A stretch of DNA of 64,000 nucleotides from Rufibacter sp. XAAS-G3-1 (GTDB lineage Bacteria > Bacteroidota > Bacteroidia > Cytophagales > Hymenobacteraceae): positions 62,001-126,000 of the forward strand of contig NZ_JABFAM010000003.1 of NCBI RefSeq assembly GCF_013623775.1, read 5' to 3'. Under the pieces are notes generated by a model that had not been told where the DNA came from, made no database searches, and worked only from the letters and a program-made list of their open reading frames with translations. Below are positions 337-62,610 of the stretch, piece after piece. Every line of letters starts with the position of its first letter. The first letter of the stretch is position 1. The position numbers were made by a program, and so were the translations under genes.

Positions 337-371
337 ATTTTAAGCCGATTTCCCAAAAAGGGGCCTAAAAC
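337..371. repeat. D36 dyad element
   Basis: 35-nt copy: left arm ATTTTAAGCCGATTTC, loop CCAA, right arm AAAGGGGCCTAAAAC. Confidence 0.7.
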
Positions 372-592
372 GGCTGCTGCGGAAGGAAAGAGAATCAATA
401 CCCGCCTCCCCGGCCTGTGCCCCGACAGGCCGGGGAGGCGTCTCAGCCTGCAATCCATGGATTTTGGCTTGCCAGGGGACAAGCCAAGGACAGGGAAATG
501 CGCTGTACCCACCCCTATGCCCCCAAGAACTCATCTGGTAGGGAAAAAACAGTAGCCATTTCAATGAAAGAAAAGGCGCTTTCTTCCCTTCC

Positions 593-653
593 CGCCTTTC
601 GGATTTATCAATCCGAAAGCACTCGGTCGGGGATTGGAAATCCCGAACAGCAA
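593..653. repeat. GGAGT/ACTCC multi-hairpin repeat, short copy
   Basis: Two hairpins: CGGATT-TATC-AATCCG and GGGATT-GGA-AATCCC. Both stems carry A-T pairs where the copies at 28966, 33951 and 51624 carry G-C pairs, so base pairing is kept while sequence changes. Confidence 0.7.
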
Positions 654-797
654 CTTTTTAAAACTTCCCTACAAGATTAGCTCCGAGGAGGGGAATCTCT
701 CCTAAGAAGCCAGAGATAAAACAGACGCTCATGCGCAGAAAGGAACCACCAGGGGTACTAGCCTCTGCCTATATAAGCCTTTAGACTTGAAAGATCC

Positions 798-833
798 GTT
801 TTAGGGCTGTTTTCTGGAAAACACACGAATAAT
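798..833. repeat. D36 dyad element, right arm decayed
   Basis: Left arm GTTTTAGGGCTGTTTT is intact; the right side keeps only AAAACA. It lies about 40 nt beyond the stop of the minus-strand receptor gene. Confidence 0.5.
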
Positions 834-871
834 GGAGGTGCCGTTCCCTTTATCCGGGGACGGGCAACCGG

Positions 872-3340
872 TTAATACTGCTCGCCTTCCCGTTCTGGCC
901 CGGCTGGTAGGTCATTCTCTTTCTCGTCGCGTTCCCGTTTCTGGGCCGTATTTCCGAAACGGTAGCTGAAACCCACAAACACCAACTGGCTCTGCGGCTT
1001 GTAACGGCTGGTTTCCTCAAACTGGTTTTCAATGAAGGTGTAAGAGTTAAACTCCATGGTGTTGAACAGATCCTGCACCCTTACAATGATATTTCCTTTG
1101 CCCCCCAGAATCTCTTTGCGGGCACTCAGGCTGGTGGTGAAAAACGAAGAGCGCTCGCCCTGCAAGGTAACCGTAGGGGAACGGTAGTTTACAGAAAGCT
1201 GTACCTCGGTCTTAAACGGCAGCGTGAAGTTGGAATTCAGGCGGCTAGTCCAGCTTAGGCGGCTGTTGGTGGGAAGCCCTTGCTCGGTTGCGTTGATCTT
1301 GTAGTTGAACCCAGAGAGGTTCACATTGAGCCGCCACCAACGGGCCAGGTTGGCCGTGCCGGTCAATTCCACCCCGTAGGAAACGCCAGAGGCAATGTTC
1401 TCAAAGGTGGTCAACGTGGCGTTTTCTCCTTCCTCATTCACAAACGGATCTCTGATGCTTTGCACCACATCGGTCATTCTGCGGTAGAAAAGTCCCGCCG
1501 TGGCGGTGGTCTGCTTCCAGAAATGCAGGTAATTCAGTTCATAAGAGTCAATAAACTCCGGCCGAAGGTAGGGGTTGCCCACCCGTATGTTCAAAGGGTC
1601 AGAAATATCCCGGAAGGGGTTCAACTGGCCCGTCCAGGGCCGGTCAATGCGGCGGCTGTACGAGGTCTGCACTTTCTGCTCCTCAGAAAACTCATAGGTC
1701 AGGAACAGGCTGGGAAACAGGTTCAGGTAATTCTGTTTGTTTCTTTGCTTCTGGGTAATCTGGTCTGTGACAATGTTGGTTTGCTCTAACCGGGCACCCA
1801 CCTGGTAACTGAATTTATCCAGCGCGTTGCCGTAGTTGCCGTACACGGCATGCACCCATTCGTCATACACAAAGTGGTTGGTGCGGCCAATGCTGTTGAC
1901 AAAAAGACTTGATGCATTGTCAAAATCGGCGGCTTGCACATCTTCATCGCTGCGTTCAAAGGTGCTGCGGTAACCGGCTTCCCATTTGCCTTTCTCGGCA
2001 AACGGATGCACATAGTCTACCTGCAAGGAGAACTCGCGTTCCTTTTCCAGCACGTCATTCGCCTGCAATAAATTCCTGTCTGTGAGAACGCCGCCCTCGG
2101 CATCATAATACATCTGCCGGAAATCGTCTTCACCGCTTTCTTCTTCCACGTTGAATACGGCATCGGCGGTTAACTCCTGGCCGGGTTTCGCGAAGGTTTT
2201 CCGGTAGCCCAGCGTGTACTCAAAAAGCCGGCTGGTCTCGTCGCCGGTGGTGTTTCTGAGAGAAGAACTGTTCAGGCTTCGGTTTTCATCCAGGAACCTG
2301 TAATTGATGTTCCCCTCATTCTCGCGGTAGCCGTACCGGTACAGCACAGACCCGGTCAAGCTTTGGTTTTCGGTTAGCTGGTAATCGGCCCCGAAACGCA
2401 CGTTATGGTTCCCCCGCTCATTGGAGTTCTCAGAGTTCTGTTCCTGAAACGAGGTGGTATCGGCGCCCGCTTCGGTCTGGAAATAATTGCTCCTGAACTG
2501 ACTGCCTTTTCCCTGGCGGTTGTCCTGCCGGAAATCATAGTTCGTAAACAGGTTGAGTTTCCCGAAACGGTAATTGAGGTTAAGCGAGGTGTTGTACCGG
2601 TTTCCAATTCCGGCGTTCGCCGATGCCACTCCGTTCAGCCCCTTTTGCTTCTCTTTTTTCAAAATGATGTTCAAAACGCCGCCCGTGCCGCTGGGGTCAT
2701 ATTTTGACGACGGGTTGGTGATCACCTCTACCCGCTCAATGGTGCTGGCCGGAATCTGATCCAGCCCCAGCCCGCTCAAAGCCGAAGGTTTGCCGTCAAT
2801 GAGAATAGTGATGTTAGAGGTACCGCGCATGCTTACCGTTCCTTCCTGGTCTACCGTCACGGAGGGCACGTTCTGCATCACATCTACCGCCGTACCGCCC
2901 ACCGTAGACAAATCCTGCCCCACGTTGTACACTCTTCTATCCAGTCCATATTCTACCTGTTCCCGTTGCCCCACTACCTCTACGGCCTTCAACAGCGTAC
3001 TCGCCGACCGTAGCGCAATCACCCCCAGATTCACGTTAGGAGCCGCGGCGGTCACCTGAATGTTAGGCACCACGCGGGTAGCGTATCCCACAAAGGAGAT
3101 TTTCAGATGGTAACGGCCTGCGGCCACCGGAGCCACCACAAAAGAGCCATCGCCGTCTACCAACGCACTGGCCACAATGGCAGAATCGCGGCCAGAAAGA
3201 AGCGCGGCCGTGGCGTAGCCCACCGGTTGTTTGGTGGTGGCATCTTGTAGTTTTCCGGTGATTTTACCTTGGCCAAAAGCCGTAGTGCAGAGGAGCGAAG
3301 TACAATAGAAAATGAGAAAGAACGAGAGAATATGTTTCAT
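872..3340 (-). CDS. TonB-dependent outer-membrane receptor (OMP_b-brl type)
   Basis: 822-residue outer-membrane barrel with a Sec signal peptide (MKHILSFFLIFYCTSLLCTTAFGQ), an N-terminal carboxypeptidase-regulatory-like beta-sandwich (about 25-115), a plug domain (about 125-230, including MRGTSNITILIDGKPSALSG and the RVEVITNPSSKYDPSGTGG stretch) and a long Tyr/Asn-rich barrel ending in YRFGNTAQ. This architecture is that of Bacteroidota receptors of the outer_membrane_beta-barrel_3 family; it probably imports or senses a ligand with TonB/ExbBD energy. No SusD-like partner or regulator lies next to it, so the substrate cannot be inferred. The short hydrophilic tail after the barrel (KRERDEKENDLPAGPEREGEQY) follows the usual terminal strand, which is slightly unusual. 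The gene stands alone. Confidence 0.9.
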   Translation of the reverse strand: MKHILSFFLIFYCTSLLCTTAFGQGKITGKLQDATTKQPVGYATAALLSGRDSAIVASALVDGDGSFVVAPVAAGRYHLKISFVGYATRVVPNIQVTAAAPNVNLGVIALRSASTLLKAVEVVGQREQVEYGLDRRVYNVGQDLSTVGGTAVDVMQNVPSVTVDQEGTVSMRGTSNITILIDGKPSALSGLGLDQIPASTIERVEVITNPSSKYDPSGTGGVLNIILKKEKQKGLNGVASANAGIGNRYNTSLNLNYRFGKLNLFTNYDFRQDNRQGKGSQFRSNYFQTEAGADTTSFQEQNSENSNERGNHNVRFGADYQLTENQSLTGSVLYRYGYRENEGNINYRFLDENRSLNSSSLRNTTGDETSRLFEYTLGYRKTFAKPGQELTADAVFNVEEESGEDDFRQMYYDAEGGVLTDRNLLQANDVLEKEREFSLQVDYVHPFAEKGKWEAGYRSTFERSDEDVQAADFDNASSLFVNSIGRTNHFVYDEWVHAVYGNYGNALDKFSYQVGARLEQTNIVTDQITQKQRNKQNYLNLFPSLFLTYEFSEEQKVQTSYSRRIDRPWTGQLNPFRDISDPLNIRVGNPYLRPEFIDSYELNYLHFWKQTTATAGLFYRRMTDVVQSIRDPFVNEEGENATLTTFENIASGVSYGVELTGTANLARWWRLNVNLSGFNYKINATEQGLPTNSRLSWTSRLNSNFTLPFKTEVQLSVNYRSPTVTLQGERSSFFTTSLSARKEILGGKGNIIVRVQDLFNTMEFNSYTFIENQFEETSRYKPQSQLVFVGFSYRFGNTAQKRERDEKENDLPAGPEREGEQY

Positions 3341-3505: not shown

Positions 3506-3541
3506 GTTTTAAGCCTGTTTTTGACGTAACTGCCCTAAAAC
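3506..3541. repeat. D36 dyad element
   Basis: 36 nt: GTTTTAAGCCTGTTTT, loop TGAC, GTAACTGCCCTAAAAC. It abuts the lpdA terminator stem. Confidence 0.8.
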
Positions 3542-3576: not shown

Positions 3577-3593
3577 TTATAGGTAAGAGTTTA

Positions 3594-5064: not shown

Positions 5065-5100
5065 GTTTTCAGGCTTATTTCACCAAAACAGGCCCAAAAC
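5065..5100. repeat. D36 dyad element
   Basis: 36 nt: GTTTTCAGGCTTATTT, CACC, AAAACAGGCCCAAAAC, between the divergent lpdA and sugar-kinase genes. A left half only (GTTTTGGGTTTGTTTT) follows at 5127-5142. Confidence 0.85.
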
Positions 5101-6298: not shown

Positions 6299-6334
6299 GT
6301 TTCATGGCCCTTTTTGAAAAAACCTGCTCAAAAC
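6299..6334. repeat. D36 dyad element
   Basis: 36 nt: GTTTCATGGCCCTTTT, TGAA, AAAACCTGCTCAAAAC. Confidence 0.75.
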
Positions 6335-6335
6335 A

Positions 6336-6375
6336 GAAGCGCTCCTTCAGCCTAAATCTGAAGGAGCGCTTTTGT
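6336..6375. terminator. bidirectional terminator
   Basis: AAGCGCTCCTTCAG / CTGAAGGAGCGCTT stem with T runs on both sides, between the convergent kinase and SDR genes. Confidence 0.8.
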
Positions 6376-6409
6376 TTTTGATGTGTTTTCCAAAAATCAG
6401 CCCTAAATC
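6374..6409. repeat. D36 dyad element overlapping a gene end
   Basis: 36 nt: GTTTTTGATGTGTTTT, CCAA, AAATCAGCCCTAAATC. It overlaps the last codons and stop of the SDR gene (6403). Confidence 0.7.
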
Positions 6410-9805: not shown

Positions 9806-9841
9806 GTTTTAAGGCTATTTTGTGTAAAACAGGCCTAAAAC
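9806..9841. repeat. D36 dyad element, near-consensus
   Basis: 36 nt: GTTTTAAGGCTATTTT, GTGT, AAAACAGGCCTAAAAC. 11 nt after the MFS stop. The rest of the spacer to 10089 holds nothing recognisable. Confidence 0.9.
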
Positions 9842-10089
9842 GGAAGCACTTTTCCCAGCGCATTCTCTTTGTATGGAAGGCTTCTAATCACACCCTACCC
9901 CGTCTCCGCCGCAATTGCCACCGTTACGTCCACCCTCATCTCCAGAACTGAGGAAGCCGTTCTCTGCGGAAAACGAGTTTCCCGCCTCTTTTCTGGATTT
10001 CAGGAAGAAAACGAAGGCGATACAAACAAGCGTCCAGCCCGCAAATACCAATAGTTCCACTTTAGTTCTGTTTAGACGCTAGCGGGTAA

Positions 10090-10891: not shown

Positions 10892-10927
10892 GTTTTTAGG
10901 CATTTATATGATTTTAAGGCCTAAAAC
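10892..10927. repeat. D36 dyad element
   Basis: 36 nt: GTTTTTAGGCATTTAT, ATGA, TTTTAAGGCCTAAAAC; the inner part of both arms is decayed. Confidence 0.65.
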
Positions 10928-11934: not shown

Positions 11935-11969
11935 GTTTATGAGCCGTTTTCCAGAAACAAGGCAGAAAC
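11935..11969. repeat. D36 dyad element
   Basis: 35 nt: GTTTATGAGCCGTTTT, CCAG, AAACAAGGCAGAAAC. Confidence 0.7.
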
Positions 11970-12001
11970 GGCAGCTCTAAGGGAAAACTACGGGTTGGTT
12001 C

Positions 12002-13068: not shown

Positions 13069-13069
13069 C

Positions 13070-13104
13070 CTTTTAGCCTACTTTCCAGAAAACAGCCCTA
13101 AACC
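13070..13104. repeat. D36 dyad element
   Basis: 35 nt: CTTTTAGCCTACTTTC, CAGA, AAACAGCCCTAAACC. It directly abuts the long inverted repeat. Confidence 0.7.
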
Positions 13105-15337: not shown

Positions 15338-15373
15338 GTTTCTACCCCACTTTCCTAAAAGTTAGCCCAAAAC
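15338..15373. repeat. D36 dyad element
   Basis: 36 nt: GTTTCTACCCCACTTT, CCTA, AAAGTTAGCCCAAAAC. 19 nt after the upstream stop. Confidence 0.75.
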
Positions 15374-16025: not shown

Positions 16026-16061
16026 TTTTTCGGCCCGTTTTCCGGAAAACAGCTTAGAAAC
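16026..16061. repeat. D36 dyad element
   Basis: 36 nt: TTTTTCGGCCCGTTTT, CCGG, AAAACAGCTTAGAAAC. 5 nt after the rluE-like stop. Confidence 0.8.
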
Positions 16062-16236: not shown

Positions 16237-16272
16237 GTTTCTGACCTGTTTCCCTAAAAACAAGCCAAAAAC
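16237..16272. repeat. D36 dyad element
   Basis: 36 nt: GTTTCTGACCTGTTTC, CCTA, AAAACAAGCCAAAAAC. Confidence 0.75.
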
Positions 16273-21308: not shown

Positions 21309-21333
21309 GTGCAAGTGTCTGCTGGGGTCAGCG
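21309..21333. repeat. GCAAGCG-type module next to D36
   Basis: GTGCAAGTGTCTGCTGGGGTCAGC, decayed copy of the module best seen at 34101-34120; immediately followed by a D36. Confidence 0.5.
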
Positions 21334-21367
21334 TTTACAGGCTACTTCTTTAAAAACAACCCAAAAC
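21333..21367. repeat. D36 dyad element
   Basis: 35 nt: GTTTACAGGCTACTTC, TTTA, AAAACAACCCAAAAC. First copy after the AT-rich island. Confidence 0.7.
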
Positions 21368-21411
21368 AGGGAGTTTATTGGCACACTGCCGCAAGCCTTG
21401 GTTGGTAAGTT

Positions 21412-21447
21412 GTTTTGAGGCTACTTTTATGAAAACAAGCAAAAAAC
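21412..21447. repeat. D36 dyad element
   Basis: 36 nt: GTTTTGAGGCTACTTT, TATG, AAAACAAGCAAAAAAC. Confidence 0.7.
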
Positions 21448-22777: not shown

Positions 22778-22813
22778 GTTTTGGGCCTACTTTCTGAAAA
22801 AGGGGCTTAAAAC
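22778..22813. repeat. D36 dyad between convergent genes
   Basis: 36 nt: GTTTTGGGCCTACTTT, CTGA, AAAAGGGGCTTAAAAC, with extra flanking arms ACATGC / GCATGT. It fills the space between two convergent stop codons (10 nt and 7 nt away). Confidence 0.9.
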
Positions 22814-23400: not shown

Positions 23401-23462
23401 CTGTATAGCGAAAAGCAAGAGAAAGCGGTTACTCCCGTTTTCTCTTGCTTTTCGCTATACAG
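23401..23462. repeat. perfect 24-bp inverted repeat in a gene leader
   Basis: Arms 23401-23424 and 23439-23462 are exact complements (CTGTATAGCGAAAAGCAAGA...), 14-nt spacer. It lies 5 nt upstream of the phosphatase ATG. Confidence 0.95.
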
Positions 23463-24331: not shown

Positions 24332-24367
24332 ACGTTTTAGGGCTTTCAGGAAAGTTTGGGGCAGACG

Positions 24368-24402
24368 CTTTTCCTTTCTTTTCAGAAAAACAGCCTTTAA
24401 AC
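24368..24402. repeat. D36 dyad element
   Basis: Left arm CTTTTCCTTTCTTTTC, right arm AAAAACAGCCTTTAAAC; a further left half (GTTTTAGGGCTTTCAG) lies at 24334. Confidence 0.55.
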
Positions 24403-27500: not shown

Positions 27501-27533
27501 CCAGTCACCTCCCAAAAAAGCCGCTTTTAAGCT

Positions 27534-27568
27534 GATTTTACAAAACCAGCCTAAAAACAGGAATCATC
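27534..27568. repeat. D36 dyad element
   Basis: 35 nt: CTTTTAAGCTGATTTT, ACA, AAACCAGCCTAAAAAC. Confidence 0.75.
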
Positions 27569-28684: not shown

Positions 28685-28720
28685 GTTTCAAGCCTCTTTT
28701 TGGAAAACCGACGTAAAAAC
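28685..28720. repeat. D36 dyad element, 3 nt after hemE stop
   Basis: 36 nt: GTTTCAAGCCTCTTTT, TGGA, AAACCGACGTAAAAAC. Its right arm end is the first part of the hemE terminator stem. Confidence 0.85.
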
Positions 28721-28965: not shown

Positions 28966-29097
28966 ACCGCTCTTCCGGAGTTCCACTCCGGAAGCAACCT
29001 GCCGGGGAGTTCCACTCCCCTTTTTTTGCCCGCGGCTCCCGGCGGAGTGGAACTCCGCAGCAGACAGGTTCGGGAGTAGAACTCCCAAACAGCAAGG
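28966..29097. repeat. GGAGT/ACTCC multi-hairpin repeat, full copy
   Basis: Four hairpins in a row: CCGGAGT-TCC-ACTCCGG, GGGGAGT-TCC-ACTCCCC, GGAGT-GGA-ACTCC, GGGAGT-AGA-ACTCCC. Inverted relative to the copies at 33951 and 51624. Confidence 0.85.
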
Positions 29098-29213: not shown

Positions 29214-29249
29214 CTTTCTGAGCTCTTTTCCTCAAAACAGCCCTAAAAC
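29214..29249. repeat. D36 dyad element
   Basis: 36 nt: CTTTCTGAGCTCTTTT, CCTC, AAAACAGCCCTAAAAC. 13 nt past the stop of the minus-strand heptose kinase gene. Confidence 0.85.
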
Positions 29250-30395: not shown

Positions 30396-30431
30396 GTTTT
30401 TAGCTTAGTTTTGCCAAACTAGCCTTAATAC
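30396..30431. repeat. D36 dyad overlapping the aminotransferase stop
   Basis: 36 nt: GTTTTTAGCTTAGTTT, TGCC, AAACTAGCCTTAATAC; most of it lies in the last ten codons of the gene. Confidence 0.7.
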
Positions 30432-31623
30432 GCTCCAAGGCTTCTATCAATTTAGCGTCTGAGGCGGCAAAAGAGAACCGGATACACTCTGGTGCCCCGA
30501 AGGCTCCGCCTTCTACCAACGACACGTGGGCATCATTGAGCAGGTACATGGCCAGGTCGTTCGCGTTTTCTATTTTAAGGTCGCCGGCAGATTTCCCGAA
30601 GAAAGCGCTCACGTCTGGGAAGATATAGAAAGCTCCCTGCGGCACATACGTCTTGATACCCGGAATGTCGTTCATCAAGCCCAACACCAGGTCACGGCGG
30701 CGCAGGTAAGACGCACTCATTTCCTCAGCAGAGGCTCTGCCGCCTTCCAGCGCGGCTTGCGCGGCTTTCTGGGCAATGGAGCAGGTACCGCTGGTAATCT
30801 GGCTCTGCATTTTATCGCAGGCATCGGCAATGTTTTTATGGGCGGCAATGTAGCCCACGCGCCAGCCGGTCATGGCGTAGCCTTTGGAGAAGCCGTTCAC
30901 GGTCACAACGCGGTCTTTGATGGACTCAAAGCGGGCCAGGCTGTAATGCTCGCCGGTGAAGTTGATGTACTCGTAGATTTCGTCGGCGATGACGTGGATT
31001 TGGGGGTGTTTTTCCAGAATGGCGGCAAAAGCAGCCAGCTCGTCTTTGGTGAACACAGAACCCGTTGGGTTGCAGGGCGAAGAATACATCACCAGTTTGG
31101 TGTTGGGCGTAATGGCCTCCTCCAGTTGCTGGGCCGTGATTTTGAAATCATTCTCCAAAGAGCCGCGCACCGGCACCGGAATCCCCTCGGCCAGTTTCAC
31201 TACTTCTTCATAGCTCACCCAGTACGGAGAGATAATAATCACCTCGTCGCCGGGGTTTACCAGACACATGACCGCGTTGGCGATGGACTGTTTGGCGCCC
31301 GTAGACACCACAATGTTTTCTGGGCCGTACTCCAGGCCGTTGTCGCGGCGCAGCTTTTCCACAATGGCTTTGCGCAGTTCAGGATAGCCCGCTACCGGCG
31401 TATAGAAGGTGTAGCCATCATCAATGGCTTTTTTGGCGGCGTCTTTGATGTACTGCGGGGTCTGGAAATCGGGTTCCCCGAAGCTTAAATTAATCACATC
31501 TACTCCTTTGGCGGCCAGTTCACGGGCTTTTTTAGCCATGGCAATGGTCTGGGACTCAGAAAGGGAGGTAATGCGGTCTGACAATACGGTTTGTTCGGAA
31601 GTCATCATCTCTTGGGAAGACAT
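30400..31623 (-). CDS. aspC: PLP-dependent aspartate aminotransferase
   Basis: 407 residues, fold type I class I aminotransferase of the AspB subgroup. Motifs: SFGEPDF near the substrate site, CNPTG (Asn185), DEIYEYINF and the PLP-binding lysine Lys247 in GFSKGYAMTGWRVGY. Converts aspartate and 2-oxoglutarate to oxaloacetate and glutamate, possibly also acting on prephenate. The true start may be the Met at residue 6 or 7; the family core begins near SDRITSL. Confidence 0.9.
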   Translation of the reverse strand: MSSQEMMTSEQTVLSDRITSLSESQTIAMAKKARELAAKGVDVINLSFGEPDFQTPQYIKDAAKKAIDDGYTFYTPVAGYPELRKAIVEKLRRDNGLEYGPENIVVSTGAKQSIANAVMCLVNPGDEVIIISPYWVSYEEVVKLAEGIPVPVRGSLENDFKITAQQLEEAITPNTKLVMYSSPCNPTGSVFTKDELAAFAAILEKHPQIHVIADEIYEYINFTGEHYSLARFESIKDRVVTVNGFSKGYAMTGWRVGYIAAHKNIADACDKMQSQITSGTCSIAQKAAQAALEGGRASAEEMSASYLRRRDLVLGLMNDIPGIKTYVPQGAFYIFPDVSAFFGKSAGDLKIENANDLAMYLLNDAHVSLVEGGAFGAPECIRFSFAASDAKLIEALERIKASLAKLS

Positions 31624-34064: not shown

Positions 34065-34100
34065 GTTTTGGGCCTGTTTTGCGGAAAACGAACCTAAAAC
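34065..34100. repeat. D36 dyad element, near-consensus
   Basis: 36 nt: GTTTTGGGCCTGTTTT, GCGG, AAAACGAACCTAAAAC, extended by GCGC on both sides. Confidence 0.9.
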
Positions 34101-34190: not shown

Positions 34191-34226
34191 GTTTCTGGCC
34201 TGTTTTCTTTAAAAGAAGCGATAAAC
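34191..34226. repeat. D36 dyad touching the recR stop
   Basis: 36 nt: GTTTCTGGCCTGTTTT, CTTT, AAAAGAAGCGATAAAC; ends 1 nt before the recR stop codon. Confidence 0.8.
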
Positions 34227-35271: not shown

Positions 35272-35326
35272 AACCCTACGCTTACCAATGTCTGGCGGGC
35301 TGGGTTTTCCGCTTAATTTTAAGAAA

Positions 35327-37486
35327 ATGACTCAAAAACAAACTGCCTTGGTCGCCCTGCTCTGGCTGTCGCTTCTGTCTTCCCTCCACACCTTTGCCCA
35401 ACAGAAGCTGCTGACCATGGAAGACACTTTCCGCAATCCCAGCCTTCTTCCTGCCAACCTGCGCCAACTCACCTGGGTGCCCGGCACCAATGATTACAGC
35501 TACGTCAATGACAAAAATGACCAATTGCTGCGCGGCTCCGCGAGAGAAAGTGCGCGCCCCATTTTAACTTCCGCGGAGGTAAGTACTGCTTTGACAAAAA
35601 TCGGCGGAGCCAATTTAACCGGGCTAAACGGCCTGGAGTGGCTGAACAGCAATGAACTCGTCCTTAACCAGCGCGGTAATTTGTTCCGGTACAACCTACA
35701 GACCAAAACCGGCCAACTGTGGTACAAACTGGATGCCGCCGCCGAGAACGTAGACTTTGCGCCCAACCACCAGCGCGCCGCCTTCACCAAAGCCCAGAAC
35801 CTGTTTATCTCCCAGCCGGGGGCCGAAAACAAACAAATCACGCAGGAAACCAACCCGGTCATTGTGAACGGACAGGCCGCGCACCGCTCTGAGTTTGGGA
35901 TTACGAAGGGCACGTTCTGGAGCCCCAGCGGCAACAACCTGGCCTATTACCGCATGGATCAGACCATGGTGACCGATTACCCGCTGGTAGACGTGAGCCA
36001 GGTTCCCGCTAAACTGAACAACATCAAATACCCCATGGCGGGCGGCAAAAGCCACCATGTAACCGTAGGTGTGTACCACGTGGCCTCGGGCAAAACCGTG
36101 TTCCTGAAAACCGGCGAACCCGCCGAACAGTACCTCACTAACCTGACCTGGAGCCCCGACGAGAAATTCCTTTACCTGGCCGTGGTGAACCGCGCCCAGA
36201 ACCACATGCGGCTAAACCAGTATGATGCCGTTACCGGTGCCTTCGTGAAAACCTTGTTTGAGGAGCAGAACGACAAATGGGTGGAACCCGAGCACCCTAT
36301 GTACTTCGTGCCCGGCAAGCCCGACCAGTTTGTCTGGATGAGCGAGCGCGACGGCTTTGACCACCTGTACCTGTACCACACCAGCGGCCAACTCATCCGG
36401 CAGCTCACCAAAGGCGAATGGGTGGTGACAGATGTAGTGGGTTTTGACAAAACGGGTCGCGAAGTGTACTACACGGGCACCGCCGAAAGTCCGTTGGCGC
36501 GCCATTTCTACGCCGCCGAACTCAGCACCGCCCGCACCGGCAGACTGACCCAGGGCAGCGGCGTGCACAACATCAGCTTCAGTTCTACCGGCCAGTACTT
36601 CATTGACAACTACAGCAGCCCCGTGACCCCGCGCACCATCCGTATTCTGGACACCGATGCCGGGAAAGTGGCCCGTACGCTGTTAGTAGCCCCAAACCCG
36701 CTGCAAGACTACAGCCTAGGCGAAACCACCCTCTTCCCCATCAAAGCCGAAGACGGTACTACTGACCTGTACTGCCGCATGATTACCCCACCCAATTTTG
36801 ACGAGAAGAAAAAGTACCCGGTGGTAGTGTACGTGTACGGTGGCCCGCACGCCCAAATGGTCAATAACAGCTGGCTGGGTGGTTCTAACCTTTGGATGCA
36901 ATTGATGGCCCAGAAAGGCTACATCGTGTTTACGCTGGACAACCGCGGCTCCACCGATAGAGGACGTGCCTTTGAACAAGCCATCTTCCGGCAGGCAGGC
37001 GTGGCCGAAGTCAGTGACCAGATGAAAGGCGTGGATTACCTGAAAAGCCTGCCCTACGTAGACGCGAACCGCCTGGGCGTGCACGGCTGGAGCTACGGCG
37101 GTTTTATGACCACCTCGCTTATGCTCAAACAACCCGGTATCTTCAAGGTAGGCGTAGCCGGAGGCCCGGTCATTGACTGGCGGCTCTATGAAATCATGTA
37201 CACCGAACGCTACATGGACACGCCCCAGGAAAACCCACAGGGCTACGAGCAAGCCAATTTGCTGAACCACGTCAAAAACCTGAAAGGCAAGCTGCTCATG
37301 ATTCACGGCACCGTTGATGATGTAGTGGTATGGCAGCACAGCCAGGCCTTCCTGAAAAAAGCCGTAGATGAAGGCGTGTTGCTGGACTACTTCGTGTACC
37401 CCGGCCACCCGCACAACGTGGGCGGCAAAGACCGGGTGCACCTGTACAGAAAGGTGACGGAGTACTTTGACGAACATCTGAAATAG
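35327..37486 (+). CDS. S9 family dipeptidyl/prolyl peptidase
   Basis: 719 residues from MTQKQ, chosen because the signal peptide (ending HTFAQQ) begins there; an in-frame ATG at 35288 would add 13 residues before it. N-terminal beta-propeller (about 40-450, DPPIV_N type) and C-terminal alpha/beta-hydrolase with catalytic Ser589 (GWSYGG), Asp665 and His696. DPP-IV/prolyl tripeptidyl peptidase family: releases di- or tripeptides after Pro from periplasmic peptides. Stands alone. Confidence 0.93.
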   Translation: MTQKQTALVALLWLSLLSSLHTFAQQKLLTMEDTFRNPSLLPANLRQLTWVPGTNDYSYVNDKNDQLLRGSARESARPILTSAEVSTALTKIGGANLTGLNGLEWLNSNELVLNQRGNLFRYNLQTKTGQLWYKLDAAAENVDFAPNHQRAAFTKAQNLFISQPGAENKQITQETNPVIVNGQAAHRSEFGITKGTFWSPSGNNLAYYRMDQTMVTDYPLVDVSQVPAKLNNIKYPMAGGKSHHVTVGVYHVASGKTVFLKTGEPAEQYLTNLTWSPDEKFLYLAVVNRAQNHMRLNQYDAVTGAFVKTLFEEQNDKWVEPEHPMYFVPGKPDQFVWMSERDGFDHLYLYHTSGQLIRQLTKGEWVVTDVVGFDKTGREVYYTGTAESPLARHFYAAELSTARTGRLTQGSGVHNISFSSTGQYFIDNYSSPVTPRTIRILDTDAGKVARTLLVAPNPLQDYSLGETTLFPIKAEDGTTDLYCRMITPPNFDEKKKYPVVVYVYGGPHAQMVNNSWLGGSNLWMQLMAQKGYIVFTLDNRGSTDRGRAFEQAIFRQAGVAEVSDQMKGVDYLKSLPYVDANRLGVHGWSYGGFMTTSLMLKQPGIFKVGVAGGPVIDWRLYEIMYTERYMDTPQENPQGYEQANLLNHVKNLKGKLLMIHGTVDDVVVWQHSQAFLKKAVDEGVLLDYFVYPGHPHNVGGKDRVHLYRKVTEYFDEHLK

Positions 37487-37492
37487 AGGTGC

Positions 37493-37528
37493 GTTTAGGG
37501 CGTGTTTTTCAGAAAACACCCTTAAAAC
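37493..37528. repeat. D36 dyad, 7 nt after peptidase stop
   Basis: 36 nt: GTTTAGGGCGTGTTTT, TCAG, AAAACACCCTTAAAAC: inner arms GTGTTTT/AAAACAC pair perfectly. Confidence 0.92.
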
Positions 37529-37748: not shown

Positions 37749-37784
37749 ATTTTGGGGCCGCTTTTCGAGAAACAGTCCCTAAAC
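37749..37784. repeat. D36 dyad element
   Basis: 36 nt: ATTTTGGGGCCGCTTT, TCGA, GAAACAGTCCCTAAAC. Confidence 0.75.
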
Positions 37785-37982: not shown

Positions 37983-38018
37983 GTTTTAGGGCAGTTTTAA
38001 GAAAAGGAGCCTTAAAAC
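37983..38018. repeat. D36 dyad element
   Basis: 36 nt: GTTTTAGGGCAGTTTT, AAGA, AAAGGAGCCTTAAAAC. Confidence 0.85.
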
Positions 38019-38064
38019 GGCAGTGTAACCAGAATGCTTGTGCCCCTTTACAAGTACACCTGCT

Positions 38065-38120
38065 GTTTCTGGCTCGTTTTCCTAAAAATAACCCAAAACG
38101 GTAAGCGACTGCTTGCACCC
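38065..38120. repeat. D36 dyad plus GCAAGCG module
   Basis: D36 at 38065-38099 (GTTTCTGGCTCGTTTT, CCTA, AAAATAACCCAAAAC), then GTAAGCGACTGCTTGCACCC at 38101-38120: the same pair order as 34065-34120. Confidence 0.8.
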
Positions 38121-41862: not shown

Positions 41863-41916
41863 GGGGGCAAGCCGCCGCTCGTTTTTAGGTTCCTTTTAGG
41901 AAAATGAGCTAAAAAC
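41863..41916. repeat. GCAAGCG module plus D36
   Basis: GGGGCAAGCCGCCGCTC (41863-41879), then D36 at 41881-41916 (GTTTTTAGGTTCCTTT, TAGG, AAAATGAGCTAAAAAC). Confidence 0.75.
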
Positions 41917-41962
41917 AGCAGGTGTACTTGTAAACGAACCTAAGCCAACCGGTTGCACAACC

Positions 41963-41997
41963 GTTTTAATGCTCCTTTTCCAAAAACAGGCCAAAAC
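41963..41997. repeat. D36 dyad, 7 nt from the galactanase stop
   Basis: 35 nt: GTTTTAATGCTCCTTT, TCCA, AAAACAGGCCAAAAC. Confidence 0.8.
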
Positions 41998-42003
41998 GGC
42001 TAA

Positions 42004-43337: not shown

Positions 43338-43373
43338 ATTTTAGGCTTGTTTTTCAGGAAAGGGCCTCGAAAT
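43338..43373. repeat. D36 dyad element
   Basis: 36 nt: ATTTTAGGCTTGTTTT, TCAG, GAAAGGGCCTCGAAAT; in the divergent spacer before the galactanase and M28 genes. Confidence 0.7.
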
Positions 43374-45186: not shown

Positions 45187-45222
45187 CTTTTCGGCCTGTT
45201 TTTACGAAATCAGGCCTAAAAC
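45187..45222. repeat. D36 dyad, 9 nt after M28 stop
   Basis: 36 nt: CTTTTCGGCCTGTTTT, TACG, AAATCAGGCCTAAAAC. Confidence 0.88.
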
Positions 45223-45330: not shown

Positions 45331-45366
45331 GTTTCAACGGTGTTTTCGCCAAAGTAGGCCTAAAAC
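45331..45366. repeat. D36 dyad element
   Basis: 36 nt: GTTTCAACGGTGTTTT, CGCC, AAAGTAGGCCTAAAAC. The 336-bp spacer 45179-45514 contains otherwise only a terminator and an AT-rich patch before the next ATG. Confidence 0.8.
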
Positions 45367-46140: not shown

Positions 46141-46176
46141 GTTTCTGGGCTGTTTTCCAAGAATCAAGCCAGAAAC
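46141..46176. repeat. D36 dyad with compensatory arms
   Basis: 36 nt: GTTTCTGGGCTGTTTT, CCAA, GAATCAAGCCAGAAAC. Outer arms ACTGTTTCTGG / CCAGAAACAGT pair perfectly although they differ from the usual GTTTTAGG. Confidence 0.88.
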
Positions 46177-46257: not shown

Positions 46258-46293
46258 GTTTTACCCCTACTTTTCAGAAATCTGGGCTAAAAC
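46258..46293. repeat. D36 dyad element
   Basis: 36 nt: GTTTTACCCCTACTTT, TCAG, AAATCTGGGCTAAAAC. Confidence 0.75.
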
Positions 46294-48868: not shown

Positions 48869-48928
48869 TGGGGCAAGCGTCTGCTGAGGCCCGTTTTTAG
48901 GTTATTTTTGCGAAAACAAGCGGGAAAC
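48869..48928. repeat. GCAAGCG module plus D36
   Basis: TGGGGCAAGCGTCTGCTGAG at 48869, then D36 48893-48928 (GTTTTTAGGTTATTTT, TGCG, AAAACAAGCGGGAAAC). Confidence 0.8.
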
Positions 48929-49339: not shown

Positions 49340-49783
49340 ATGTTTGATCAAATCTTAGGCCTTGTAAAACAACACCTGGGCAATAACCCACAGGTTGCCT
49401 CAGCTATACCCGCCGGCCAGGCAGATGCCGTGCACACTGAAATAGCGCACCAGGTCACGAATGGCTTGGCCGGTCAGGCGGCCACCCAGGGCGGCATAGG
49501 CGGTTTAATGGCCATGTTGCAGGGAGGCATGTCATCTGGCAGTCCTGTTACGTCTGCTATTGTGGGCAGCGTGGTCAGCAGTTTGGGGAGTAAGTTTGGG
49601 CTGCCTCCGGCGGCAACGGGTGCCATAGCGGCCGCGCTGCCCGGTTTACTCCAGAGTTTCGCCCACAAGGCAACAGACCCCAACGACCACAGCATTACCC
49701 CAAATACCATCACTCAAACGCTCTCAAAGTTAGGCGGAGGCGGCTTAGGAAACTTAGGCGGTTTAGGCGGTCTTTTCAAATAA
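49340..49783 (+). CDS. DUF937/YidB-like protein
   Basis: 147 residues: MFDQILGLVKQHLGNNPQ, a Gly/Ala/Met-rich middle (GGLMAMLQGGMSSGSPV), a helical core (VVSSLGSKFGLPPAATGAIAAALPGLLQ) and a Gly-rich C-terminus (GGGGLGNLGGLGGLFK). Fits DUF937, small proteins of unknown function without signal peptide. Followed by a terminator-like hairpin. Confidence 0.75.
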   Translation: MFDQILGLVKQHLGNNPQVASAIPAGQADAVHTEIAHQVTNGLAGQAATQGGIGGLMAMLQGGMSSGSPVTSAIVGSVVSSLGSKFGLPPAATGAIAAALPGLLQSFAHKATDPNDHSITPNTITQTLSKLGGGGLGNLGGLGGLFK

Positions 49784-50412
49784 ACAAGGCAAAAACACCG
49801 GCCTGTCTCCTTATTCTGAATTTAGGCAGCCACCGCCGCCTTCTTGAATGTGGAGCGGTCAGATGAGCCACTGGAGAACGGCTTTTAAAGGGCTATTCTC
49901 CAGTGGTTCGTTTTCTTTACAGGCTGCTCTCCCTCTTGAGACTTGGTTCTTTTAGAGAAGCACTTATCTATTCCTGTTCATTCCGGATGTCTGAACACCG
50001 GTACGCCGTCAGATTTTGTGTTTACATAAACAACTATATTCGTAATATTACCGCCTGACAAACGCTGTGTCTCAGGTATACTGGAGCACTTGCGTTTAGC
50101 GAAGGGTAAGTTTCTTTGGGGCAAGTTGTGGTAACGCAAACAAACCGTTTCCTTTGACTGCCAGCACCAAAGACTACCAGTCTGCTCACCCGAAGGATTT
50201 TCAGGATTTGCGTAGAGTTAGCCAAGCCCCACATAACCCATTACGGTGCACGTACACCGCTTTTAAACCAGGAAGATGCCAAACCAGGAAATGAAACAAA
50301 ACACCTGCCCTCCTTTGGAGATGCTGTGGCGGGAAGCAGGCCGTCAAAATGAAACCAATTTACAGAAAATGAGCCTAGAAATACATCAGCCACTTAAAAA
50401 AGGAGACAACTA
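49784..50412. other. 629-bp spacer
   Basis: Terminator-like hairpin near the start. The remainder (49920-50412) shows no gene, no D36 and no clear promoter; the last 120 bp read like decayed coding DNA but contain no open frame. Confidence 0.55.
49868..49917 (+). terminator. terminator-like hairpin
   Basis: Perfect 11-bp stem CCACTGGAGAA / TTCTCCAGTGG, then TTCGTTTTCTTT. Confidence 0.65.
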
Positions 50413-51737: not shown

Positions 51738-51773
51738 GTTTCCGGCCTATTTTCCCCAAAACGACCCAAAAAC
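51738..51773. repeat. D36 dyad element
   Basis: 36 nt: GTTTCCGGCCTATTTT, CCCC, AAAACGACCCAAAAAC, extended by ATGC / GCAT flanks. Confidence 0.85.
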
Positions 51774-53291: not shown

Positions 53292-53327
53292 GTTTTTGCC
53301 TTACTTTCAAGAAATGGGGCCATAAAC
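53292..53327. repeat. D36 dyad element
   Basis: 36 nt: GTTTTTGCCTTACTTT, CAAG, AAATGGGGCCATAAAC. Confidence 0.7.
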
Positions 53328-54418: not shown

Positions 54419-54454
54419 GTTTTCTGCCAGTTTTAGGAAAAACAGCCCTAAAAC
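54419..54454. repeat. D36 dyad element
   Basis: 36 nt: GTTTTCTGCCAGTTTT, AGGA, AAAACAGCCCTAAAAC. Confidence 0.82.
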
Positions 54455-55470: not shown

Positions 55471-55506
55471 GTTTTAGGGCCGTTTTCGGAAATATTCCCT
55501 GAAAAC
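55471..55506. repeat. D36 dyad element
   Basis: 36 nt: GTTTTAGGGCCGTTTT, CGGA, AATATTCCCTGAAAAC. Another left half, GTTTCTGGCCCGTTTT, lies at 55405. Confidence 0.82.
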
Positions 55507-57032: not shown

Positions 57033-57068
57033 GTTTACGGCTTCTTTTTGAGAAAATAGCCCCAAAAC
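57033..57068. repeat. D36 dyad element
   Basis: 36 nt: GTTTACGGCTTCTTTT, TGAG, AAAATAGCCCCAAAAC; its last bases start the next terminator. Confidence 0.78.
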
Positions 57069-57883: not shown

Positions 57884-57919
57884 GTTTTAGGGCTATTTTC
57901 CAGTAAACAGCCTTAAAAC
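57884..57919. repeat. D36 dyad, near-consensus
   Basis: 36 nt: GTTTTAGGGCTATTTT, CCAG, TAAACAGCCTTAAAAC, extended by CCT / AGG. Confidence 0.92.
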
Positions 57920-59349: not shown

Positions 59350-59385
59350 GTTTTTACACTCTTTCTCTGAAAACAGGCTAGATTC
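59350..59385. repeat. D36-like dyad, degenerate
   Basis: 36 nt: GTTTTTACACTCTTTC, TCTG, AAAACAGGCTAGATTC. Confidence 0.6.
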
Positions 59386-59576: not shown

Positions 59577-59707
59577 AGAAAAAGAAGGGATGCTCAGTGG
59601 TTGGCTTTACCTCCAGCCATTGGAACTGTTATTTTTAGCGGCTCTTTTTTATACTCAACGGAGTGCAGGAGCATCTGATGCTTTTGAACCTAAACCACTG
59701 TCTACTC

Positions 59708-60499
59708 ATGAAAAAACTTTCCATTGCCATTCTCTTCTTTCTCGCCTTTGTGGCACACCTTGCTACGCAAGCCCAACAAATTAAAACACAGTTGGTAGAG
59801 TACAAGGAAGGCTCCACTACTTTAGAAGGATACCTGGCCTATGATGCCTCCAAGAAAGGGAAACTTCCGGGCGTACTAGTGGTGCATGAATGGAACGGCA
59901 TCAGCGACTACACCAAACAAAGATGTGAGCAACTGGCCAAGATGGGCTACGTGGCCTTCGCCGCCGATATCTACGGCAAAGGGGTAAGGCCTAAAACCCC
60001 AGAGGCAATGGGGGCCGAAGCCGGAAAATACAAGAACAACGTTCCGTTGCTGCGCCAACGGGTGAATGCCGCCCTAACCCAGTTGAAAAAACAAACCAAC
60101 GTAGATGCGGCTAAAGTGGCCGCCATTGGTTATTGCTTCGGCGGTACCACCGTGCTGGAACTGGCCCGCAGTGGAGCCGATGTAGCCGGGGTGGTGAGTT
60201 TTCACGGCGGCTTGGGTACCCCCAACGTTGCCGATGCCCACAACATCAAAGCAAAAGTACTGGTAGAGCACGGTGCCATTGACCCCTTCGTGCCCAAAAC
60301 CGAACTGGACGGTTTCTTCAAAGAAATGAATGATGCCAAGGTAGACTACCAGTTCGTGGCGCACAGCGGCGCGGTGCACTCCTTCACCAACCCAGACGCT
60401 GGTACTGATATCTCCAAAGGCGCGGCCTACAACGCCGCCGCAGACCGCCGCTCCTGGGCAGACATGCAACAGTTTTTCGCCGAGATTTTCAAAAAGTAA
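59708..60499 (+). CDS. dienelactone hydrolase family protein
   Basis: 263 residues from MKKLSIAIL, the start of the signal peptide (to about TQAQ); a GTG at 59663 in the same frame is rejected. Alpha/beta-hydrolase with the dienelactone-hydrolase triad Cys143 (GYCFGG), Asp192 and His224, and Glu61 in VVHEWNG. Secreted; opens lactones or esters. No catabolic genes adjoin, so the natural substrate is open. Confidence 0.9.
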   Translation: MKKLSIAILFFLAFVAHLATQAQQIKTQLVEYKEGSTTLEGYLAYDASKKGKLPGVLVVHEWNGISDYTKQRCEQLAKMGYVAFAADIYGKGVRPKTPEAMGAEAGKYKNNVPLLRQRVNAALTQLKKQTNVDAAKVAAIGYCFGGTTVLELARSGADVAGVVSFHGGLGTPNVADAHNIKAKVLVEHGAIDPFVPKTELDGFFKEMNDAKVDYQFVAHSGAVHSFTNPDAGTDISKGAAYNAAADRRSWADMQQFFAEIFKK

Positions 60500-60508
60500 G
60501 CCTAAAAC
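60472..60508. repeat. possible D36 overlapping a gene end
   Basis: 37 nt: GTTTTTCGCCGAGATT, TTCAA, AAAGTAAGCCTAAAAC across the last codons (QQFFAEIFKK) and stop. Weak; the coding constraint could explain it. Confidence 0.4.
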
Positions 60509-60519
60509 AGACCAAAGCA

Positions 60520-60564
60520 CCAAAAACGCCGTGGCAGGACTTATCTCCTGCCACGGCGTTTTTG
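60520..60564 (+). terminator. strong intrinsic terminator
   Basis: Perfect 20-bp stem CCAAAAACGCCGTGGCAGGA / complement, 5-nt loop; 20 nt past the hydrolase stop. Confidence 0.9.
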
Positions 60565-60753
60565 GTTTATATCTGATTATTCCGGGAGCTTGGACTTTTA
60601 AATAAAATCCCAATATCTTCCTCAGCTTACTTGCGTAGAGAAAGGTACCCTTTGCCTGCGTAGTGTTAACCCTTGCTAAAAGATACCGTAAGGTAAAGGC
60701 TTCTGAAAGGTGCCAATCCCTCCAGGCACTGGAACTCATCTCGCCGTCTTACT

Positions 60754-62559
60754 ATGTCTATAGCTCCTACGCAAAGATTTTCTCTGCTTACCTATGGTCT
60801 GCTGCTTCTGTTGGCTAGTCTGGCCTTTGCCGCGTGTAAAAAGAAGAATCCGCATGCTGAGGAAACCGTGGTGTTCAAGCCCCAACCCATCTCGCCGGAA
60901 GACACCATCAAATACCCCAACGAACTCATCACCACCCTCAACCGGAAAAACAAATGGGTAGACTCAGTTTTCCGCCGCATGACCCCAGAGGAGCGCATCA
61001 CGCAGTTGATGATGATTGAGGTGTTCTCCAACCAAGGGCCGCAGCACGAAGAAGACGTACGCATGCTCATCAGGCGCTACAAAGTGGGCGGACTTATCTT
61101 CTTCCAGGGCGGGCCGGTGCGGCAAGCCAAGATGACCAACCGCTTACAGGCCGCCTCCAAGATTCCGCTCTGGATTGGCATGGACGCTGAGAACGGCATT
61201 GGCATGCGCATGGACAGCGCCATGCAGTACCCCTTGCCCATGCTTCTGGGAGCCATCAACAACGACAGCCTTATTTACCAGATGGGGGCCGAGATGGCCT
61301 TTGAGTTCAAACGGCTGGGCATGCACGTCAACTTCGCGCCGGTGGTAGACGTGAACAACAATGCCAACAACCCTGTCATCAGTTACCGCGCCTTCGGCGA
61401 AAATAAAGACGATGTGAGCTCCAAAAGCCTGGCCCAGATGCTGGGCATGCAGGACAACGGCATCATTGCCACCGCCAAACATTTTCCCGGCCACGGCGAC
61501 ACCGAGGTAGATTCGCACTATGACTTGCCCGTGATCTCGTACGGCCGTGAACGCCTGGACTCGCTGGAACTGCACCCGTTCCGGCATTTGATCCAGAGCG
61601 GGGTGGGTGGTATTATGGTGGGGCACATTCACTTGCCCAAACTGGACTCCACCGCCAATTTACCGGCCTCGCTCTCTAAACCCATTGTAACCGGCATCCT
61701 GAAGCAGGAATTCGGCTACGCTGGCCTCATCTTTACTGATGCCATGGTGATGAAAGGCGTAACCAAATACTTTAAACCCGGCGAAGCCGAAGTCATGGCG
61801 CTGGAAGCGGGTAATGACGTGGTGGAACGGTTGGTGAGCGTGCCCAAAGCGCTGGAGGCCATCAAAGCCGCGATTAAGCAAGGCCGGTTGAGCCAGCAAG
61901 ACATTGACCGAAGCTGCAAAAAGATATTGGCCGCCAAGTACTGGCTTGGGTTGCACAACTATCAGCCTATCAAAATTGAGAACCTGTACCAAGATCTGCA
62001 CGCCCCCCACGCCCATGAAATGCTCCGACGGCTGGCCGAAGGTTCGCTCACGCTGCTGCAGAACAAGCGCAATCAGATTCCGCTGGAAGACCGAAAACGC
62101 CGGAAAGTAGCCAGTCTGGCGGTGGGCGGCACCAAAACCACTTTCTTTCAGAAGAAAATCAAAGAAAAGCTTACCACTCAGGATTTCTTTCTGCCGCGCC
62201 GCTCCAATAAGAAAGACATAGAGAAGCTTAGGAAGGAGTTACTGAACTACGATCTTCTGCTGATCAGTATTTACGGCCCCAGCATCAGGCCCAGCAACAG
62301 CCTGGGCTTCACCCCAGAAGAACGCGCACTGGTAAACGAACTGGTTAGGAAGAAGAGGTGCGTGGTGGTGCTTTTTGACAACCCCTATACCCTTAACCGG
62401 CTGCCAGACATCCACCAGGCCACCGCGCTCATTGTGGGCTACCAGCAGTTGCCCGCGGTTCAGGCCGCGGCGGCCAAAATGATTCTGGGCGATCTAACCC
62501 CGCAGGGCAAGTTACCGGTCACCGTAAACCAGCATTTCCGCTACGGAGATGGTTTGTAG
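60754..62559 (+). CDS. nagZ: GH3 beta-N-acetylhexosaminidase lipoprotein (NagZ-like)
   Basis: 601 residues. Lipobox LAFAAC (Cys28). GH3 domain with the NagZ signature KHFPGHGDTEVDSH (242-255), supplying the His/Asp acid-base dyad, and nucleophile Asp329 (IFTDAMVM). A C-terminal alpha/beta sandwich (about 440-601) follows; the beta-lactamase-like domain seen in some Bacteroidota relatives is absent. Releases GlcNAc from peptidoglycan fragments. It precedes namZ by about 100 bp. Confidence 0.92.
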   Translation: MSIAPTQRFSLLTYGLLLLLASLAFAACKKKNPHAEETVVFKPQPISPEDTIKYPNELITTLNRKNKWVDSVFRRMTPEERITQLMMIEVFSNQGPQHEEDVRMLIRRYKVGGLIFFQGGPVRQAKMTNRLQAASKIPLWIGMDAENGIGMRMDSAMQYPLPMLLGAINNDSLIYQMGAEMAFEFKRLGMHVNFAPVVDVNNNANNPVISYRAFGENKDDVSSKSLAQMLGMQDNGIIATAKHFPGHGDTEVDSHYDLPVISYGRERLDSLELHPFRHLIQSGVGGIMVGHIHLPKLDSTANLPASLSKPIVTGILKQEFGYAGLIFTDAMVMKGVTKYFKPGEAEVMALEAGNDVVERLVSVPKALEAIKAAIKQGRLSQQDIDRSCKKILAAKYWLGLHNYQPIKIENLYQDLHAPHAHEMLRRLAEGSLTLLQNKRNQIPLEDRKRRKVASLAVGGTKTTFFQKKIKEKLTTQDFFLPRRSNKKDIEKLRKELLNYDLLLISIYGPSIRPSNSLGFTPEERALVNELVRKKRCVVVLFDNPYTLNRLPDIHQATALIVGYQQLPAVQAAAAKMILGDLTPQGKLPVTVNQHFRYGDGL

Positions 62560-62574
62560 CAGCCAACTGGTTCT

Positions 62575-62610
62575 GTTTTAAGGCTGTTTTAAGAAAATTA
62601 GCGATAAAAC
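62575..62610. repeat. D36 dyad, 16 nt after nagZ stop
   Basis: 36 nt: GTTTTAAGGCTGTTTT, AAGA, AAATTAGCGATAAAAC. Confidence 0.82.

Follow-up and report, generated by a model that had tools for sequence, protein, structure and literature searches.

We examined a 64,000-nt stretch of the genome of Rufibacter sp. XAAS-G3-1 (contig NZ_JABFAM010000003.1, positions 62,001 to 126,000; hereafter the window) and found that a 36-bp element recurring along it, termed D36, is best explained as a recognition signal in double-stranded DNA that spans whole genomes of the genus Rufibacter, taken in the GTDB sense as Rufibacter with Sabulibacter. D36 comprises two 16-nt arms (GTTTTnnGSCTGTTTT - 4 nt - AAAACAGSCnnAAAAC) and may serve either as a tag by which cells recognize their own DNA during uptake or as a site to which a protein binds. 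Because its traits match those reported for DNA uptake sequences (DUS) and the related uptake signal sequences (USS), we commit, by analogy, to the interpretation that D36 would act as an uptake-type signal with a two-fold-symmetric receptor, and we hold this interpretation with confidence somewhat below even.

D36 is strongly over-represented genome-wide, as are DUS and USS. In the window's genome (5.3 Mb in 73 contigs), 1,555 copies lie within 3 mismatches of the consensus pattern, whereas the pattern read backwards yielded 0. This count rests on the consensus pattern; a profile scan covering 464 kb of the same genome recovered 288 copies, a density that extrapolates to about 3,300 per genome. 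The "some thousands" that an earlier note on the window had anticipated is right. On the 400-kb contig C36, 231 matches were obtained at 18 bits against 0.2 in shuffled sequence; 197 of them contained at most 12 coding nucleotides and 28 were fully coding. Furthermore, the profile scan, which covered 2.46 Mb over 16 genomes, and the pattern search both detected D36 in all 16 genomes of the genus (104 to 1,953 copies by pattern; 350-766 per Mb by profile), with 0-0.5 matches per shuffled segment. The copies are single and dispersed at a mean spacing of 1.3-2.9 kb. Type II CRISPR (clustered regularly interspaced short palindromic repeats) repeats resemble D36 in their 36-nt length and GTTTT...AAAAC form; D36 differs in its dispersion and in forming no arrays.

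Outside the genus the signal vanishes almost completely. Among 84 genomes of five other genera, 79 had no pattern match and five had 1-2, and the profile, applied to 80 kb from each of five sister genera, gave one match in G002 and none in the other four. Thus, the search of related Hymenobacteraceae that had been proposed places D36 in every genome of one genus and not across the family. Among the matches listed for a strict exact search of named genomes, 79 of 80 belonged to Rufibacter and one of 80 to Sabulibacter. A search for analogous fixed dyads in the same five 80-kb segments reached a best z of about 7, compared with 20-34 in the window's genome and G022, barring a CRISPR-like array in G011. 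In that genome, which is of another genus, a TCAA-15-TTGA dyad was seen 60 times in 80 kb (L278-L281), probably a CRISPR array. The sole viral contig with a strict D36 match was the 39-kb IMG/VR contig L265, perhaps a Rufibacter provirus. The exact motif was not described in the titles and abstracts listed in searches of papers outside subscription journals and preprints. The statement that no element of this form had been described holds, within this search, for the exact motif. In its evolutionary behavior, however, D36 is similar to DNA uptake sequences, and in its location to repetitive extragenic palindromic (REP) elements.

D36 is a rigid dyad that occurs almost only complete. Its information content amounts to about 35 bits in the window's genome; in G017, G022 and G045 it reaches 44-48 bits. 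In three segments, the central gap measured 4 nt in 523 of 555 copies, 3 in 24, 5 in 7 and 0 in 1, in line with the constant length first noticed in the window and without the large length variation that would have spoken against it. Inverted arm pairs at gaps of 6-13 were essentially absent (1 pair across three data sets); pairs at gaps of 14-15 numbered 38 in the window's genome and four elsewhere, and we take them for other registers of the same copies. Lone arms of at least 14 bits outside D36 were modestly in excess in the window's genome (46, against 13 in a mirror control), slightly so in G045 (8 against 0) and not clearly in G022 (6 against 3) or G017 (10 against 4), whereas the arms of at least 14 bits inside D36 numbered 441, 298, 314 and 308, respectively.

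Covariation between the arms at positions 8-16 gave no positive signal in any of four data sets, pairing being at the level expected from column base composition; some covariation was found elsewhere, at arm positions 5-7 in the window's genome, at 2 and 5 in G017, and in the flanks. Because the arms do not covary, the signal resides in DNA rather than in an RNA hairpin, a reading that we rejected, and since positions 8-16 vary independently, the symmetry represents a doubled recognition sequence and not a paired stem. While the inner arms do not covary, flanks of up to 8 nt are complementary across D36 more often than expected by chance, and far more so in G045 and G048; in G045, at least 6 of 8 flank positions paired in 27% of copies compared with 4% after shuffling, and some copies of this genome occupy the loop of bidirectional terminator-like hairpins. 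An extended hairpin, or insertion into terminator loops, was nevertheless rejected as a general description, given that copies with palindromic flanks are a minority and only 2 copies lie inside a predicted terminator hairpin. The flanks also show a preference for pyrimidine or C before the arms and for G or purine after them. A directional model improved the likelihood clearly in G045, less in G017 and G022 combined, and not in the window's genome. In tandem spacers, D36 pointed with and against transcription 43 and 43 times in G045, 33 and 47 times in the window's genome, and 91 and 63 times in G017 and G022; orientation thus follows transcription little or not at all, the bias in the last two genomes being slight and these two sharing sites.

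Placement behind genes and terminators

Genes were predicted with a simple codon-usage caller made for this analysis. In spacers of 100-200 bp, D36 occupied 86% of convergent, 42% of tandem and 13% of divergent cases, with the proviso that some spacer classes, and some of the genic copies considered below, may be wrong because the caller is simple. Copies concentrate just behind stop codons or behind predicted terminators, and one is present at 480 of the 804 gene ends that leave space of at least 100 nt. Where an intrinsic terminator was predicted, D36 lay after it in 118 cases, before it in 57, inside it in 2 and overlapping it in 8; where none was predicted, the first D36 stood a median of 32 nt from the stop codon. 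Such a preference for the 3′ side of genes, within convergent and tandem spacers, is REP-like. Moreover, the copies are spread more evenly than random: occupied spacers in four segments numbered 127, 126, 136 and 125 against 104, 91, 82 and 87 expected under a null that ignores the stop-codon preference, and the coefficient of variation of the gaps was 0.91-1.10 against an expected 1.31-1.38.

A terminator, protein roadblock or insulator at operon ends was weighed as an explanation; the high occupancy of gene ends, the position mostly behind predicted terminators, and the folding of D36 RNA (-7.9, -10.4 and -13.0 kcal/mol, compared with -4.0, -4.4 and -5.6 kcal/mol for shuffles) are in its favor. 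However, D36 differs from an intrinsic terminator in having neither a covarying stem nor a U-tract: no T-run follows it, and strand bias is little or none. Nor does it replace intrinsic terminators, with which it co-occurs at odds ratios of 0.87 in tandem and 2.02 in convergent spacers. Some divergent spacers carry D36 as well, and copies of 28-41 bits lie within genes for ArgS, TsaD and a helicase-like protein, in which halted transcription would be harmful. We regard a role in termination as the least probable of the explanations weighed here.

Despite free spacers, long stretches devoid of D36 were observed in G022 (93058-115011 and 151547-163115 of L058-L077 joined) and in G045 (196545-212755 of L098-L117 joined). 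The genes within them presumably form glycosyltransferase-like, SusCD-like and LacI/SusCD-like clusters, to go by the starts of their sequences, and the stretches are perhaps younger or exchanged DNA.

Copies within genes, their age and their dialects

The earlier note had denied that any copy reaches into a gene farther than the last codons. This does not hold: two copies, at 2642 and 30997, lie inside genes of the window, and the scanned genes of at least 150 codons from the 16 genomes (1.66 Mb coding) contained, well within their bounds, 55 copies scoring 18 bits or more, against 0.3 when codon order was shuffled and 4.7 under synonymous shuffling. They make up about 5% of the 1,172 copies. 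Genes with homologues in the data set account for 28 of the 55, and the other 27 have no orthologue there. In a helicase-like gene (1,330 aa; AAA_11/AAA_12), two copies occupy the same codons in the window's genome, G045, G017 and G022; a third, of about 40 bits, is confined to G017 and G022, the corresponding DNA scoring -5.9 in the window's genome and -22.4 in G045 although the protein alignment is gap-free. The helicase-like gene of the sister genus G002 has no D36 match. Similarly, a 1,086-aa gene of G060 (G060a|21), which we take to be TMEM260-like, carries a copy of 31.9 bits at a place that scores -5.7 in G017 and 2.3 in G022 without a gap, and gap-free replacement was likewise seen in one gene of G063 (G063|3). 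For the copies in TsaD, ArgS and a P450-reductase-like domain, alignment to homologues of solved structure shows no insertion. Gap-free alignment to orthologues lacking the motif indicates that these genic copies arose by substitution; in the genes examined, D36 thus owes its presence mostly to point mutations and not to the insertion of a mobile repeat.

Origin by substitution resembles that of DNA uptake sequences and counts against a REP-like palindrome or a miniature inverted-repeat transposable element (MITE) that transposed in a Rufibacter ancestor and then decayed. REPs and bacterial interspersed mosaic elements do share with D36 its length, palindromic look and 3′-side location, palindromes of 20-40 bp situated 3′ of genes in convergent and tandem spacers being typical of REPs according to passages of PMC3733652. 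A mobile origin would also suit the inverted-repeat flanks of some copies, which look as if D36 sat in a hairpin loop, as well as three genic copies in stretches absent from relatives (in an IcmF-like gene, G060a|21 and G022|159), for which insertion is a possible origin because relatives are without those stretches. Nevertheless, the other genic copies replace rather than insert, and for the gap-free ones a mobile origin is contradicted. No clean empty site was found among 65 aligned copies of two species, the flanks bear no conserved GTAG or CGTC tag, the inner arms do not covary, and the copies are under purifying selection. There is no link to REP-associated tyrosine transposases (RAYTs), since 84 of 100 genomes scattered across the family have matches to RAYT-type Y1 (Y1_Tnp), whereas a search of G017, the bearer of 1,213 copies of D36, revealed none. 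A mobile origin is therefore improbable in our estimation.

Genes of at least 3 kb contained 0.09 genic copies per kb compared with 0.02-0.03, the helicase-like gene being counted in two related genomes. In G022, a gene with three helix-hairpin-helix (HHH_3) motifs, presumably ComEA-like (L058:8471-9415), has a 50.8-bit D36 in its middle, and the G017 version scores 44.0 bits. With profiles trained on matches of at least 18 bits, the scores of D36 come close to all-or-none in G022 and G017, each of which has one intergenic site between 0 and 20 bits. Graded near-matches, absent in these two genomes, are present in the window's genome, coding DNA included, and its genic scores form a continuum.

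G017 and G022 share 80% DNA identity in their aligned parts. Among 134 orthologous spacers, 77 and 78 were occupied and 76 were occupied in both, where chance expects 45. For the 65 copies spanned by the alignment (98 of 163 were not spanned and stand outside the conservation figures), 64 had a copy at the same place, one aligned site was below threshold, and none was cleanly absent. In 47 gap-free orthologous pairs (17 of the 64 element pairs had gaps and were excluded from the per-position counts), the ten core T/A positions were 97.7% identical and the flanks within 30 nt 63-70%, figures that favor conserved positions because a pair was admitted only if each of its copies scored as an element. 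The copies are under purifying selection, and the sites are old and long-lived. Selection on a two-fold-symmetric DNA or RNA shape, as had been proposed, is therefore supported for DNA, by the rigid geometry, the rarity of lone arms and the conserved core, and not for RNA, given pairing no better than composition at positions 8-16 and little or no orientation bias.

Both the all-or-none scores of G022 and G017 and the gap-free replacement within genes could also be produced by an overwriting process, such as short single-stranded DNA annealing at replication forks, that stamps D36 in one step with length unchanged. Yet the orthologous copies of G017 and G022 drift like their flanks at the variable positions, the genic scores of the window's genome are continuous, and neither a template source nor an enzyme can be named; we consider such a process improbable, too.

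Across the genus, the probability that a spacer is occupied when an orthologous spacer is occupied, as compared with empty, was 0.86 versus 0.19 for the window's genome and 0.87 versus 0.23 for G045; prediction was weakest for G006 (0.74 versus 0.33) and G060 (0.32 versus 0; 37 pairs). Clade-specific dialects are applied to most of these sites, as in DUS and USS: G045 uses GTTTAGGGGCT, G017 and G022 use GTTTTTGGCCT, and G048 uses GTTTTCGGGCTCATTT, most other genomes being looser. In shared spacers, AG occurred at positions 5-6 in 19 of 28 G045 arms (14 copies) but in 7 of 194 arms from other genomes, so that old spacers carry the local dialect.

A possible uptake signal or architectural site

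Biased DNA exchange would be the driving force behind these patterns if D36 worked like the DUS and USS of Neisseriaceae and Pasteurellaceae. Competent cells would favor self-DNA bearing D36 via a two-fold-symmetric (dimeric) surface receptor; recombination would then fix better matches in permissive DNA, that is, behind stop codons, beyond terminators and in loose coding stretches, and rarely in promoters or tight coding DNA, and whenever the receptor changed, the sites would be pulled toward a new dialect. D36 is like DUS and USS in having thousands of copies confined to one clade, dialects that follow lineage, a concentration in permissive DNA and close to terminators, little or no strand bias and an origin by point mutation in sequence that already existed. 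USS additionally contain two A/T tracts one helical turn apart, a feature reminiscent of D36. For DUS, passages of PMC3630211 describe dialects, permissive sites and association with terminators, and for both DUS and USS, parts of PMC1939737 describe origin by point mutation rather than insertion, absence of orientation bias and molecular drive by uptake bias. Furthermore, ComEC and DprA families were present in all 6 Rufibacter genomes tested. Also counted in favor of uptake are the confinement to one genus, the excess of genic copies over shuffles, the more even spread of copies than expected and the 50.8-bit copy in the presumably ComEA-like gene of G022.

Several observations weigh against an uptake signal. 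ComEC and DprA were present equally in the five sister-genus genomes tested, all of which are without a D36 pattern match. Known DUS and USS are short and asymmetric (words of 9-12 bp) and act as single copies, whereas D36 is a 36-bp dyad needing both arms, for which reason we do not class it as a member of that family; it is also mostly intergenic, nearly all-or-none in two species, and hosted by Bacteroidota. The sections of PMC1939737 that deal with these properties report graded near-matches for DUS and USS, unlike the scores in G022 and G017, give a genic share of 65% in H. influenzae and 35% in N. gonorrhoeae, compared with about 5% for D36, and take highly regular spacing to indicate a sequence that compacts the chromosome and not one for uptake. 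The prediction that genic copies should fill D36-poor stretches found no support, their nearest-neighbor distances being those of random genic positions (p = 0.95). Moreover, the copy in the IcmF-like gene lies within a 44-residue segment absent from the solved homologue, and the N-terminal copies of G060a|21 and G022|159, perhaps the result of miscalled starts, have no counterpart in orthologues.

The principal rival, second to the uptake-type signal and in our judgment rather unlikely, is a site of chromosome architecture, at which a dimeric or tetrameric intracellular protein (a nucleoid-associated protein, a condensin loader or a topoisomerase) would bind D36 about every 2 kb, mainly at transcription-unit ends. 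The phased A/T tracts, whose centers in the consensus are separated by 11, 8 and 11 bp, would aid DNA bending. A rigid dyad with a variable center and independent arms accords with this explanation, as do one copy per spacer with even spacing, the strong 3′-side preference, the all-or-none scores in two species and the longevity of the sites. Sites of the IHF/HU type are similar in that D36 is about 36 bp long, two-fold symmetric and furnished with phased A/T tracts, the IHF footprint itself being about 36 bp. However, the genus has no extra HU/IHF-type gene: one strong PF00216 match per genome was found in 32 of 32 genomes tested, weak second matches occurred inside and outside the genus, and no candidate protein was found. 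In addition, several thousand sites would have to switch dialect one by one upon a change of the protein. Concerted dialects favor uptake, whereas the all-or-none scores in G017 and G022, the few genic copies and the even spacing favor architecture.

It is possible, and we suggest it only tentatively, that D36 represents a categorically new kind of genomic signal, namely a 36-bp dyad, obligatory as such, that is recognized by a dimeric receptor or an architectural protein, that substitutions have carried to most of the operon ends throughout a genus, and whose dialects change in concert. The literature searched describes uptake words as a means of self-recognition in Neisseriaceae and Pasteurellaceae (passages of PMC3630211 and PMC1939737). 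Riemerella columbina (Flavobacteriaceae) is reported to undergo natural transformation in which its own DNA is preferred (PMC7965970); the candidate uptake words derived there from k-mer counts, in Riemerella and Flavobacterium, are unproven. As an uptake signal, D36 would be the best supported in Bacteroidota within the literature searched and would have a new geometry; uptake words would then reach a further phylum, where the receptor follows a different logic; as an architectural site, it would reveal a sequence-specific chromosome organizer not known before. Both interpretations are directly testable with short synthetic DNA. The coding comparisons, which argue against insertion as the general origin, also caution against assuming that any intergenic palindrome of 36 bp is a REP.

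Copies in the 64-kb window

The window was scanned at a threshold of 15 bits with a profile pooled from segments of the 16 genomes, the window included, and 49 matches of at least 15 bits were obtained. The proposed comparison of a profile with shuffled spacers gave 38 matches in 44 called spacers against a mean of 0.0 over 20 rounds, and 24 of 39 spacers of at least 100 nt were occupied; at 9 bits, 64 matches contrasted with 1.9 in whole-window shuffles, the profile having been trained on these matches. The list of about 44 copies in the earlier note proved correct in the main. All 18 copies rated good there reached at least 15 bits within 1 nt of the position given, as did 23 of 27 rated weak; of the remaining weak ones, that at 27534 was real but 11 nt out of register (27523..27558; 34.0 bits), and those at 10892, 35236 and 51355 stayed below threshold (9.4, 9.2 and 3.9 bits).

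Seven copies had been missed. Two of them lie within genes: 2642..2677 in the gene at 872-3340 (-), with 19.5-20.0 bits where three gap-free orthologues score -15 to -25, and 30997..31032 in the gene at 30400-31623 (-), with 22.8 bits where three gap-free orthologues score -17 to -25. A weak D36-like copy near the end of the former gene (937..972; 16.8 bits) shows one-codon gaps relative to orthologues. The others are 9977..10012 (19.1 bits), 35304..35339 (32.0 bits), 49761..49796 across the end of the open reading frame (ORF) 49340-49783 (28.7 bits) and 60473..60508 across the end of ORF 59663-60499 (24.2 bits).

The following copies, all reaching at least 15 bits with the pooled profile, are likewise close to ORF ends: 9806..9841 begins 10 nt past the stop of ORF 8578-9795 (+), 30396..30431 overlaps the stop end of ORF 30400-31623 (-), 34191..34226 abuts the stop end of ORF 34227-34835 (-), and 45187..45222 stands just past the stop of ORF 43508-45178, behind which a copy is present at +10 to +21 in 6 of 14 orthologous loci, the window's own included. 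The same threshold was reached in the first half of the window by the copies at 336..371, 798..833, 3506..3541, 5065..5100, 6299..6334, 6374..6409, 11935..11970, 13069..13104, 15338..15373, 16026..16061, 16237..16272, 21333..21368, 21412..21447, 22778..22813, 24367..24402, 28685..28720 and 29214..29249. Beyond it, D36 was found at 34065..34100, 37493..37528, 37749..37784, 37983..38018, 38065..38100, 41881..41916, 41963..41998, 43338..43373, 45331..45366, 46141..46176, 46258..46293, 48893..48928, 51738..51773, 53292..53327, 54419..54454, 55471..55506, 57033..57068, 57884..57919, 59350..59385 and 62575..62610, again with at least 15 bits each.

Pairs of D36 spaced 75-82 nt apart occur at 37983-38100, 41881-41998 and 6299-6409. 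By eye, the stretch between the copies at 6299 and 6374 resembles a terminator hairpin, and those at 38065 and 41881 have an 18-nt flank in common, in inverted orientation. The window had no Rfam match at gathering scores. It also contains long inverted repeats unrelated to D36, at 28969-29093 (50-nt arms, 78% complementary) and 23401-23462 (28-nt arms, 96%).

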